DNA of 64,000 nt from Roseovarius sp. EL26 (lineage in GTDB: Bacteria > Pseudomonadota > Alphaproteobacteria > Rhodobacterales > Rhodobacteraceae). The notes beneath the pieces were generated by a model. It made no database searches and had not been told where the DNA came from. It saw nothing but the letters and a program-made list of their open reading frames with translations. Both the position numbers and the translations under genes were made by a program. Below, one piece after another: positions 19,108 through 48,430 of this stretch. Every line of letters begins with the position of its first letter. Position 1 is the stretch's first letter. The stretch is taken from positions 979,606-1,043,605 of the forward strand of contig NZ_OUMZ01000007.1 in assembly GCF_900327775.1 (NCBI RefSeq). The letters are read 5' to 3'.

Positions 19108-19470
19108 TTACCCTTCCATAGGCGCCATCAACTCGCATTCATGCCCATCGCGTACTGCCGTATAGAAACAACTCCGCCGATTGGTGTGGCAGGCCGCTCC
19201 TACCTGCTTGATCAGCACCAGAAGGCAATCACGATCACAATCTAACCGGAAATCCACCAATTCCTGAGTATGGCCCGAGGTTTCACCCTTAATCCAGAAC
19301 GCTTGCCGTGACCGGCTCCAATAAGTGACGCGGCCAGTTGCCAGCGTCTGTGCCACGGCTTCTGCATTCATCCACGCCATCATCAGCACATCTCCGGTCT
19401 CGTGATCTTGCGCAATTGCCGGGACCAGCCCTGCCTCGTTGTATTTCAGTGTCTCTGGATCAAATTTCAT
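19108..19470 (-). CDS. hisI: Phosphoribosyl-AMP cyclohydrolase
   Basis: Third step of histidine synthesis, opening the adenine ring of PR-AMP. This is a stand-alone HisI domain of 120 residues without the HisE fusion. Metal-binding residues are seen in [14 protein letters not shown] and [13 protein letters not shown], and the substrate region is [19 protein letters not shown]. The ATG at 19470 is preferred over one six codons upstream because AAAGG is better placed and because homologues begin close to FDPETLKYN. No other his genes are nearby. Divergent from a NifU-like gene. Confidence 0.96.
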
Positions 19471-19536
19471 GTCGAAAACCTTTTGCATCTGACGCTTTGC
19501 CCACTATCTAAGAGACAGCAACACAAAGGAAAAGCC

Positions 19537-19992
19537 ATGAGCGGCGAAACCGACCTCATCAAACTCTATTCTGCCCGCATTCTGGAGCTGGCCGCCGACA
19601 TTCCGCGCCATGGCCGATTGGAATCCCCTGATGCCACAGTAAAGCGCCGCTCGCCGCTGTGCGGTTCAACAGTGACGGTTGATATCAAAGTATCCGATGG
19701 CCGCGTGTCAGGCTATGCCGCTGATGTCAAAGCCTGCGCCTTGGGTCAGGCGGCGGCCAGCATTGTTGGAGCCAATATCATCGGCTGCACACAGGATCAG
19801 GTGATTGCCGCCCGAGATGCGCTCAAATCGATGTTAAAACAGGATGGCCCAGTCCCTGATGCCCCCTTTGATGGGCTCGAGGTTCTTTTGCCTGCGCGTG
19901 ACTATAAAAATCGCCACGAGTCGATTTTGCTAACCCTCAACGCCTCAGTCGAGGCCATGGCTGAGATCAGCGCCGCCAGCAGCTGCGCCTGA
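19537..19992 (+). CDS. NifU-like/IscU-type iron-sulfur cluster scaffold protein
   Basis: A 151-residue protein with the IscU/NifU N-terminal fold and conserved cysteines in SPLCGSTVTVDI, VKACALGQAAASIV and the C-terminal SSCA. The ATG at 19537 is set by AAAGGAAAAGCC upstream; longer in-frame readings run antisense through hisI and are rejected. Such stand-alone scaffold-like proteins are widespread in alphaproteobacteria, usually away from the suf operon, and their specific target is unclear. A small membrane protein gene follows 6 bases later. Confidence 0.88.
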   Translation: MSGETDLIKLYSARILELAADIPRHGRLESPDATVKRRSPLCGSTVTVDIKVSDGRVSGYAADVKACALGQAAASIVGANIIGCTQDQVIAARDALKSMLKQDGPVPDAPFDGLEVLLPARDYKNRHESILLTLNASVEAMAEISAASSCA

Positions 19993-19998
19993 CCTGCT

Positions 19999-20193
19999 AT
20001 GTCACCTCGTAGGGTCTGGGCATATAACTTTACTGGATGGGTTCTCTTTACCCTCTCCGCACTTGGTTTTTTATGGACAACCCTCAAAGCGGGCGATGCC
20101 ATCGGTTGTGTTGCAAGTCTATTGTTCCTGATTGCCTGTTTGGTTTTCATTATACCCGTTTGGAAAATGCGCCCCCGCAAGAACCAAGACTAA
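19999..20193 (+). CDS. Small two-helix membrane protein
   Basis: A 64-residue protein with two predicted transmembrane helices (about residues 12-29 and 36-53) and a basic C-terminal tail KMRPRKNQD, which should face the cytoplasm. It starts 6 bases after the NifU-like scaffold gene on the same strand, so it is almost certainly in the same transcript. No family recognised. Confidence 0.65.
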   Translation: MSPRRVWAYNFTGWVLFTLSALGFLWTTLKAGDAIGCVASLLFLIACLVFIIPVWKMRPRKNQD

Positions 20194-20214: not shown

Positions 20215-20248
20215 AAAAAAACCGCCGCGCACCCATAGGGCGGCGGCG
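20215..20248 (-). terminator. Terminator downstream of the SOS-box small protein gene
   Basis: On the minus strand, CCGCCGC...GCGGCGG forms a GC-rich stem, and the A run at 20215-20221 on the plus strand becomes a seven-T tail. It lies about 170 bases past the stop of the gene at 20419, leaving a long 3' untranslated region. Confidence 0.88.
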
Positions 20249-20418
20249 GCAAGTCATGCAAATCCTGGAGATCCAAACTGTGCCTCACGCGGGAAGAGGC
20301 AAAAACCCGCTGACAGGGACAGAAGTCGGGACAAGGGACAGTCGTCTCGGAATATGTGCATCACGCTTGGGACATAAGATGCAAGCACAGCCGGGTCAGG
20401 ATATTGCAGGCAGAAAAC
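20249..20418 (-). other. Long 3' untranslated region with GGGACA repeats
   Basis: About 170 bases between the stop of the 40-residue protein gene and its terminator. GGGACA (plus-strand reading) occurs four times: 20316-20321, 20328-20333, 20335-20340 and 20369-20374. In the transcript these read TGTCCC and stay single-stranded in simple folding by eye. A 3'-derived small RNA is possible. Confidence 0.4.
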
Positions 20419-20541
20419 TTACGTTAATCCAGGCAAGTAAAGTGCCCCGACCAAAATGACCATCAAAGCAACAACACCAAGCGCATCGCTTAGCAGGGTT
20501 TCGCGGGACGTATGGGCAACAGTTTTGATCTGGTGAAGCAT
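20419..20541 (-). CDS. 40-residue membrane protein under a LexA-type operator (candidate SOS small protein)
   Basis: Translation gives a basic N-terminus (MLHQIKTVAHTSRETLLSDA), then one hydrophobic helix (LGVVALMVILVGALYL) and a short tail PGLT. AAGGAG lies about 9 bases before the ATG. A perfect GAAC-N7-GAAC site at 20606-20620 lies 65 bases upstream, and a terminator follows downstream. The frame is below usual length cut-offs and easily missed. Its design recalls Caulobacter SidA, a 29-residue SOS-induced membrane protein that blocks division, but no sequence identity is claimed. It follows recG on the same strand. Confidence 0.72.
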   Translation of the reverse strand: MLHQIKTVAHTSRETLLSDALGVVALMVILVGALYLPGLT

Positions 20542-20605
20542 CGGTGTGGGCTCCTTTTTGATTAACAGTTGCTACTTTGTTCTCATTTTATTCACTCACT
20601 GTAAA

Positions 20606-20620
20606 GAACTTTTTAAGAAC
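20606..20620 (-). promoter_or_regulatory. LexA-type operator (GTTC-N7-GTTC)
   Basis: GAACTTTTTAAGAAC on the plus strand is GTTC-N7-GTTC on the minus strand, the consensus known for alphaproteobacterial LexA. A third GAAC at 20627-20630 extends the array. TTTACA overlaps its downstream edge as a possible -35 for the small-protein gene. The recA box in this window has the same form. Confidence 0.75.
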
Positions 20621-20634
20621 ATTAGTGAACATTT

Positions 20635-20648
20635 ATGGAATCATTCCA

Positions 20649-20649
<1 letters not shown>
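20635..20649. repeat. Palindrome at the recG stop
   Basis: ATGGAAT and ATTCCAT form a perfect 7-bp inverted repeat around one C, touching the recG stop codon. There is no T tail, so it is a poor terminator. It may protect the recG mRNA end or be an operator edge. Confidence 0.5.
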
Positions 20650-24925
<4,276 letters not shown>

Positions 24926-47284: not shown

Positions 47285-48364
47285 TTACGCCTCGAGGATG
47301 TCATCCTCATCTTTACTGGGCATCTCGGGCATATCGAAATCCAGACCATGTGCAGCCCTGATTTTATCTTCGATCTCAAGCGCGGTGCGGGTGTTTTCCT
47401 TGAGGAAGTTTTTCGCGTTTTCGCGGCCCTGACCGATACGCTCGTCACCGTAACTGAACCAGCTGCCGGATTTATCGACAACGCCAGCTTTGACACCCAG
47501 ATCCAGCAGTTCGCCCATCTTGGAAATACCTTCGCCATACATGATATCAAACTCGACCTGTTTGAACGGCGGTGCCACTTTGTTCTTAACCACTTTCACG
47601 CGTGTCGCATTGCCAACCACCTCATCACGGTCTTTGATCGCGCCAATACGGCGGATATCCAGACGGACCGAGCTGTAGAATTTCAATGCGTTACCACCGG
47701 TTGTGGTTTCAGGGCTGCCGAACATCACACCAATTTTCATCCGGATTTGGTTGATGAACACAACTGTGCATTTGCTACGGCTGATTGATCCGGTCAATTT
47801 GCGCATCGCTTGGCTCATCAGGCGGGCCTGAACACCAACGTTGCTGTCGCCCATGTCGCCTTCCAACTCGGATTTCGGTGTCAACGCCGCAACCGAATCG
47901 ACAACAACCATGCTGACTGCGCCAGAGCGCACCAAGGTATCAACGATTTCCAGCGACTGCTCACCTGTGTCGGGTTGCGAGATCAACAATTCATCCAGAT
48001 CGACGCCCAATTTCTTGGCATAGCCCGGATCCAGCGCATGTTCGGCATCAACAAAGGCACAAACACCGCCTTTTTTCTGCTCTTCTGCGATGCAGTGCAG
48101 GGTCAGCGTGGTTTTACCAGAACTTTCCGGGCCATAAATCTCAACAATCCGGCCTTTAGGCAGACCACCAATACCCAAGGCAATATCCAGCCCCAGAGAA
48201 CCGGTCGATGTCGCCTCAATATCCTGCGCAGGATTATCCGCGCCCAGTTTCATGATCGAGCCCTTGCCAAACTGCCGTTCAATCTGCGCCAAAGCGCTAT
48301 CGAGCGCCTTTTGCTTGTCTGCGTTCTTCTTGCTGTCCATTGATAAAAGATCTGCCGTTGCCAT
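47285..48364 (-). CDS. recA: Recombinase RecA
   Basis: A 359-residue recombinase and LexA coprotease. Walker A is [12 protein letters not shown], loop L2 and the [20 protein letters not shown] region are canonical, and the acidic tail ends [12 protein letters not shown]. It has its own promoter and LexA box upstream, so it is SOS-induced, and its own terminator. ACTTCC upstream of the start reads GGAAGT on the coding strand. Confidence 0.99.
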
Positions 48365-48415: not shown

Positions 48416-48430
48416 GTTCCCGTCTTGTTC
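48416..48430 (-). promoter_or_regulatory. LexA operator of recA
   Basis: GTTCCCGTCTTGTTC is a perfect GTTC-N7-GTTC box (GAAC-N7-GAAC on the recA strand). It lies directly downstream of the predicted -10, where LexA would block RNA polymerase. A near-copy, GAAC-N7-GAAA, overlaps the -35 at about 48454-48468. Confidence 0.88.

Follow-up and report, generated by a model that had tools for sequence, protein, structure and literature searches.

Downstream of recG in Roseovarius sp. EL26, within the 64,000-nucleotide stretch of contig NZ_OUMZ01000007.1 that we analysed (hereafter the window), lies a gene for a 40-residue membrane peptide that is conserved across the Rhodobacteraceae, stands behind a near-invariant promoter with LexA-type operators and is followed by a conserved structured RNA. 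The peptide gene, its conservation, the operators and the conserved RNA fold are established here by comparison of sequences. We read the locus, with about even confidence for and against, as the source of a LexA-repressed checkpoint transcript of the Rhodobacteraceae, in which a SidA-like membrane peptide is combined with a regulatory 3' untranslated region (UTR) RNA. Two unclassified families, one of peptides and one of RNAs, would here share one transcript under a near-invariant SOS-type promoter, conserved across the Rhodobacteraceae, and the locus makes the question of how these bacteria hold division after DNA damage directly testable. In the parts of the open-licence PubMed Central literature consulted, we found no account of such a division hold in Rhodobacteraceae and no paper naming the peptide gene. 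A preliminary description of this DNA had recognised the frame and its upstream box; it overlooked a second, inverted box as well as the structured RNA, likewise conserved, that follows the stop codon.

A conserved peptide gene downstream of recG

The peptide gene runs from ATG to TAA on the minus strand (20419..20541) and encodes 40 residues with a basic N-terminus and one transmembrane helix (approximately residues 20-37), the N-terminus being predicted to be cytoplasmic. A Shine-Dalgarno sequence, AAGGAG (20551..20556, minus strand), stands 9 nt 5' of the ATG. Frame and ribosome site are present as the preliminary description had them, as is the position of the gene behind recG, which lies upstream on the same strand (20649..22739) and ends at 20649; the recG C-terminus is found upstream of the peptide gene in 156 of 159 loci. 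From the other side two plus-strand frames approach. One, of 64 residues with two hydrophobic stretches (19999-20193), is convergent with the peptide gene and ends beside its terminator; the other, NifU-like as read by eye (19402-19992), converges on the peptide-gene transcript, and a relative lies no more than 1.5 kb downstream of the peptide gene in 117 of the 146 loci with enough room. A mobile origin was rejected: phages gave no match, and a single weak match fell on a 1.58-Mb Pseudorhodobacter plasmid record.

A search with the single peptide sequence found the peptide in 22 of the genus's 24 genomes, the window's own included (all at E <= 7.7e-7), and, at E <= 0.01, in 264 of 394 from the family. 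A profile built from 42 members matched 117 of 121 high-quality genomes in a sample of the order, all 121 of which belong to the window's family (4 matched weakly, E 0.0016-0.0074), and 115 of the 117 had a single match each. When the same search was applied to a sample of the class (n = 385), strong matches (E <= 4.2e-15) appeared in 5 genomes, all of the window's family and including the window's own; matches in 22 class-sample genomes outside the family (E 0.0015-0.097) were taken as noise, nearly all of them lying within frames of more than 100 aa.

For closer comparison we used the 50 best-scoring loci, a set that leans to close relatives and from which the weak matches L023-L025 were left out. 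The frame starts with ATG in all 50, and comprises 40 codons in 49 and 36 codons in one (L046), which rules out a spurious frame; D19, G22, L34 and P37 are invariant across the 49 loci with 40-codon frames. The preliminary description had made the gene depend on conservation of the frame in close relatives and on coding constraint. Conservation is borne out by the profile search above. As to constraint, 31, 22 and 47% of the differences fall on codon positions 1, 2 and 3, and the median dN/dS of 0.45 is only moderately low (483 of 1176 pairs, those with pS < 0.6), values that lend moderate support to constraint on the coding frame. Shortened peptides of 31-34 residues occur in L219 (Paracoccus saliphilus), L281 and L305, where D..G and L..P are kept and most of the N-terminal helix is missing. 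Neither Pfam nor NCBIfam gave any match to the peptide up to E 10, and PHROG gave only one, at E 0.22. The peptide is an unclassified family, and its gene is real as judged by conservation.

Character of the peptide

Over 150 distinct sequences, residues 1-18 carry a mean charge of +1.3, with 119 of the sequences reaching +1 or more there, no K or R follows D19, and hydropathy is maximal in 19-residue windows beginning at residues 15-22, which points naturally to a single-pass protein whose N-terminus is inside. AlphaFold2 predicts helices at residues 2-11 and 13-39 with a mean pLDDT of 88. By hydropathy, charge and helix model, the peptide is thus predicted to share the form of SidA-type inhibitors, a very short protein with one transmembrane helix. 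Conservation is concentrated on one helix face by permutation, both for residues 15-37 (P = 0.009) and for residues 3-18 (P = 0.03), in a test on these sequences, 109 of which had been picked with a pattern fixing four of the positions; for residues 21-36 alone the concentration is not significant (P = 0.12, permutation). A single conserved face suggests that the helix has a helix partner in the membrane.

A near-invariant promoter with LexA-type operators

Operator 1 (GTTCTTAAAAAGTTC, 20606..20620, minus strand) reads GTTC-N7-GTTC in 50 of 50 loci and begins 71-110 nt 5' of the ATG in every one of them; an extra GTTC half-site 10 bp upstream (20627..20630, minus strand) retains G in 45, T in 49, T in 46 and C in 47 of the 50. 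Both elements had been picked out in the preliminary description, which proposed looking for a conserved GTTC-N7-GTTC in relatives and pointed to the likeness with the recA box of the window. That likeness holds: recA (47285-48364, minus strand) has GAAC-N7-GAAC at 48416-48430, which is the same box seen from the other strand. Closer to the start codon stands box 2 (GAACAAAGTAGCAAC, 20568..20582, minus strand), an inverted, operator-like GAAC-N7-CAAC whose GAAC positions are kept in 48-50 and whose CAAC positions are kept in 43-50 of the 50 loci; it departs once from the GAAC-N7-GAAC form of recA and lexA and may be a further LexA site. The whole promoter is near-invariant in the 50 loci, consisting of GTTC, N6, GTTC, TYAAAAA, GTTC, TTTAC, approximately 12 more variable bases, TGAGAACAAA and GCAAC.

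As a yardstick, we examined recA and lexA in 30 genomes chosen among carriers of the peptide gene, taking an operator in the promoter as the mark of the LexA regulon. The same box was found in the other orientation at recA in 29 of 30 and at lexA in 30 of 30 genomes, to be set beside 50 of 50 loci for the peptide gene; the sole boxless recA locus, L143, is cut on one side, and the fixed offset may have missed its start. At lexA itself, the promoter in this set is TTGACA-N17-TAGAAC, and the box overlaps it. In the peptide-gene region, a scan returned no sigma-70 consensus promoter and no clear -35/-10 pair was seen by eye.

Within the window alone operator 1 would pass for a chance box, as GTTC-N7-GTTC occurs twice against a mean of 2.0 in shuffles, 57 of 100 of which hold two or more; genome-wide, the pattern occurs 86 times versus 162 for a reversed control pattern. 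A chance box is nevertheless ruled out, because operator 1 is conserved in all 50 loci. Searching species genomes with the promoter pattern alone yielded at least 118 stretches; among those listed, 109 carry the frame, 6 carry a diverged frame (judged by eye) and 3 end too early, and no gene other than the peptide frame was found behind the pattern, which was itself derived from the peptide gene, so that its matches had to include that gene. Records of Roseovarius marisflavi, Ruegeria lacuscaerulensis and Sulfitobacter dubius are among those that carry the promoter. Conservation of this kind supports the view that a gene for a single-helix membrane protein, equipped with a conserved LexA-type operator, stands behind recG.

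Other copies of the box were encountered in passing. An extra GTTC-N7-GTTC accompanies the conserved one in L039, L051 and L316, and in L039 and L051 the two share one GTTC. Twenty of the 86 genome boxes were inspected, chosen for A/T-rich spacers, and three of these precede frames read from sequence as lexA, Y-family polymerase-like and UvrD-like; the boxes before the Y-family DNA polymerase-like and UvrD-like frames (L331 and L337, in the window's genome) likely mark more LexA targets.

A conserved structured RNA in the 3' UTR

The intrinsic terminator that the preliminary description placed behind the frame is real (GCCGCCGCCGCCC-TAT-GGGTGCGCGGCGG followed by seven T, 20215..20250, minus strand), with two-sided changes in 8 of 12 stem pairs over 39 sequences, but it does not follow the frame directly, standing about 170 nt past the stop codon; a simple terminator scan did not list it. 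The intervening stretch of about 170 nt is conserved and includes a long-range stem. It holds a structured RNA domain (20250..20416, minus strand; window coordinates converted from L001 and the genome contig), delineated by two models, R1 and R2, and by covariation, and comprising a 5' UUUCUGCCUGC, a long-range closing stem and the C-rich motifs CUGCCU, CUGUCC and UGCCUC.

Aligned over 39 of the 50 loci, the tails present an invariant CUGCC, followed by blocks of CUGUCC/CUGCCUG, by small hairpins and finally by the terminator (alignment A2, omitting L042 and L051, which have no T6 run, the near-copies L003, L012 and L017, and L015, L034, L035, L039, L045 and L049). Several motifs are strongly kept. 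CTGCC lies no more than 60 nt past the stop in 48 of 50 tails (the exceptions being L045 and L051) and in 90 of 104, with 0.34 per tail expected from later bases, and CTGCC[TA]GC lies no more than 80 nt past the stop in 99 of 154 tails versus 6 occurrences in 27720 later bases. Among the 50 tails, TGTCCC is found in 48, TGCCTG in 46 and CTGCCT in 45.

RNAalifold applied to the 39-tail alignment recovered the terminator alone, because the hairpins differ in length and misalign. With the terminator removed, the tails fold more stably than their shuffles: the median folding z is -2.16 and 28 of 48 tails fall below -2, some of them having been shortened by the cutting rule; the window's whole UTR including the terminator has a folding z of -3.66. 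Model R1, built on 16 close sequences from 24 first considered, picks up 52 of 97 further loci (E <= 0.01), including the window (E 3e-4 in 563 kb). Across all 88 non-founder matches to E 10, its 17 pairs are 89.1% paired versus 33-51% after a shift of 1-3 columns, and 16 pairs vary on both sides. A further set was drawn from 75 loci that were chosen largely for an earlier match and include the founders; its 72 matches are 91.8% paired versus 30-54% after shifting, with two-sided changes in 15 of 17. Both counts come from alignments fitted to the structure, which favours the structure. Among the founders (n = 16), variation is wholly absent from 7 of 11 closing-stem pairs, and the two-sided changes in later matches are therefore new evidence.

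In the window's whole genome, model R2 has a single match at E <= 1, which lies immediately 3' of the frame and has E 4.1e-6; under strict filters the model finds a match (E <= 1) in 73 of 149 genomes of the family. All 50 of its matches at E <= 1e-3 in the 149 genomes lie just 3' of the peptide frame (34 placed by coordinates, 16 by fetched sequence). The possibility that the RNA occurs without the frame was ruled out at 16 RNA matches (4 in genomes without a single-sequence protein match, 12 in genomes where the place of the protein was unlisted), frame and box being present in 16 of 16. Rfam has no such RNA family, its two matches being far below the gathering score (E 0.0054 and 0.27). We conclude that the 3' UTR is a conserved structured RNA of an unclassified family, and that the gene has one trait of the DinR type, a structured 3' end with its own terminator on an mRNA under LexA-type control.

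Division-gene leaders as candidate RNA targets

Following the DinR precedent (PMC10907235), ftsZ and ftsW of 30 genomes were picked as possible targets before their leaders were inspected. The commonest 6-mers in the ftsW leaders are AGGCAG and GAGGCA, the complements of CTGCCT and TGCCTC in the UTR (21 of 30 each). In the ftsZ leaders, for several of which the simple rule set the start codon too far upstream, AGGCAG (complement of CUGCCU) occurs in 11 of 30 and GGACAG (complement of CUGUCC) in 15 of 30, versus 36 and 21, respectively, of 1098 crude background leaders. AGGCAG is found in 6 of 29 recA leaders, 2 of 29 lexA leaders and 5 of 324 background leaders of the window's genome; elsewhere in the division and cell-wall cluster each gene has it in 0-2 leaders, 1-16 leaders per gene being readable by crude gene calls, and a ddl-like gene has GAGGCA in 7 of its 16 leaders. 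At least one complement of the 15 commonest UTR 6-mers is present in 28 of 30 ftsW, 25 of 30 ftsZ, 16 of 29 recA, 11 of 29 lexA and 279 of 1098 background leaders. AGGCAG and AGGCGG could be mere Shine-Dalgarno variants. In many ftsW leaders (L392-L421), a small hairpin like CCCCGAAAAGGGG and then GAGGCAG stand near the start codon and form a conserved element of the leader.

In the window's genome, the duplex energy of the 5' UTR segment places ftsZ at rank 2 and ftsW at rank 5 of 321 leaders, and the other three UTR segments give ranks of 12, 4 and 166 for ftsZ and 53, 57 and 134 for ftsW. Like ftsW, 9 of the 320 background leaders contain 8 nt complementary to the 5' segment; for the whole UTR the number is 65 of the 320. 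Duplex energies of the whole UTR relative to shuffled leaders are weak (median z -1.0 for ftsW, -0.62 for ftsZ, -0.48 for recA and 0.55 for lexA). So are the ranks that the 5' segment gives in 20 genomes, with a median percentile of 0.42 for ftsW (top tenth in 2 of 20) and of 0.27 for ftsZ (top tenth in 6 of 20). We therefore treat pairing with division mRNAs as a lead and not as a result. Targets were also sought through the exact 10-mer GCAGGCAGAA, which occurs at 20 places in the genome including the UTR itself, none of them convincing.

Proposed mechanism and alternative readings

For the checkpoint transcript that we favour, we infer that LexA binds the promoter, that the transcript is induced, where it starts and ends, that division is its target and that the RNA acts in trans. 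RecA would remove LexA from the promoter, allowing synthesis of an mRNA of approximately 330-370 nt, and this would be translated into a 40-residue single-pass inner-membrane peptide with a cytoplasmic N-terminus. The peptide most likely binds an intramembrane partner through the helix face formed by T15, D19, G22, L26, L30, L34 and P37, and would slow septation as SidA does on FtsW. The folded 3' UTR is most likely an RNA regulator, probably released past the stop codon, which would expose CUGCCU and CUGUCC. In a more specific version that we regard as doubtful, division would be stopped twice, by the peptide acting on the FtsW complex and by the UTR RNA pairing through CUGCCU/CUGUCC with AGGCAG/GGACAG in the ftsW and ftsZ leaders; were it true, the locus would constitute a general SOS checkpoint of the Rhodobacteraceae, a dual-output SOS gene conserved family-wide.

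The weak energies of UTR complementarity to division genes would sit more easily with a LexA-controlled division inhibitor that consists of the peptide only, and whose conserved 3' UTR merely stabilises the mRNA without a trans target; SidA and YneA, which act as proteins on the divisome, are precedents (PMC4211646, PMC13396833). We consider this possible without thinking it probable, as mere stabilisation of the mRNA hardly explains why the UTR motifs (TGTCCC, TGCCTG, CTGCCT and the CTGCC near the stop) are so strongly kept.

A small hydrophobic peptide, a LexA-type promoter and a structured RNA in the transcript also fit a peptide like TisB or DinQ, which under LexA control would act on the membrane (depolarisation, slow growth, persistence), with the UTR or an unseen antisense RNA limiting its translation as in a type I toxin-antitoxin pair. 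The stacked operators, which suggest tight repression, speak for it, and DinQ and the type I toxins provide precedents (PMC3567139, PMC8309996). The conserved helix face with its invariant D, G, L and P, however, fits a specific partner better than bulk action on the membrane, and no signal of pairing between the UTR and its own leader or ribosome site was found in the 25 of 50 loci searched (every second locus). Nor is the peptide gene, with its single match per genome in 115 of 117 genomes, distributed like most type I toxins. We judge this reading unlikely.

That some regulator other than LexA binds the box, leaving the peptide gene outside the SOS response, is highly improbable: the recA and lexA boxes read GAAC-N7-GAAC towards their gene and operator 1 reads GTTC-N7-GTTC with an A-rich spacer unlike theirs, but the motif is identical on the other strand, box 2 has the recA/lexA orientation and is close to the recA box (GAACAAAGAGGCAAC versus GAACAAGAGGCGAAC), and the predicted LexA sites of Dinoroseobacter shibae fall into GTTC and GAAC groups (PMC6473078).

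Comparison with known systems

Several characterised systems resemble parts of the proposed checkpoint transcript. Two E. coli type I toxins, TisB and DinQ, are alike in being SOS-controlled single-helix peptides. TisB has an antisense RNA partner. For DinQ, too, an antisense RNA partner is known (PMC3567139), which may set these toxins apart from the gene described here.

DinI/DinR of Klebsiella is a LexA-controlled mRNA whose 3' end is released as a small RNA against ftsZ (PMC10907235), and it shares with our locus a short mRNA under LexA-type control, a regulatory-looking 3' end and a division mRNA as a possible target. It differs in that DinI modulates RecA filaments and that the pairing stretch of DinR is Klebsiella-specific, whereas the UTR here is family-wide (PMC10907235). 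In other phyla, YneA, SosA and ChiZ are likewise small damage-induced membrane proteins on the septal synthesis complex, YneA acting on FtsW and SosA and ChiZ doing likewise by low-confidence models (PMC13396833); they have extra domains or regions, and the sections of that source consulted mention no structured UTR for them (PMC13396833).

Within the Alphaproteobacteria, a survey of LexA sites in Dinoroseobacter shibae makes no mention of recG or SidA in the portions of its main text consulted (PMC6473078). SidA of Caulobacter crescentus is an SOS-induced 29-residue inner-membrane division inhibitor that binds FtsW (PMC4211646), and the filamentation of a Caulobacter lexA deletion is due to sidA (PMC12700426). 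Our peptide is similar in being a very short membrane protein of an alphaproteobacterial host with a LexA-type operator, where SidA is under LexA control. It differs in its 40 residues, in D19, G22, L34 and P37, invariant in 49 loci, in its linkage to recG and in its conserved structured 3' UTR. We liken it to SidA and YneA by description, not by sequence, and without claiming membership, and suggest that it plausibly works as that kind of peptide does.
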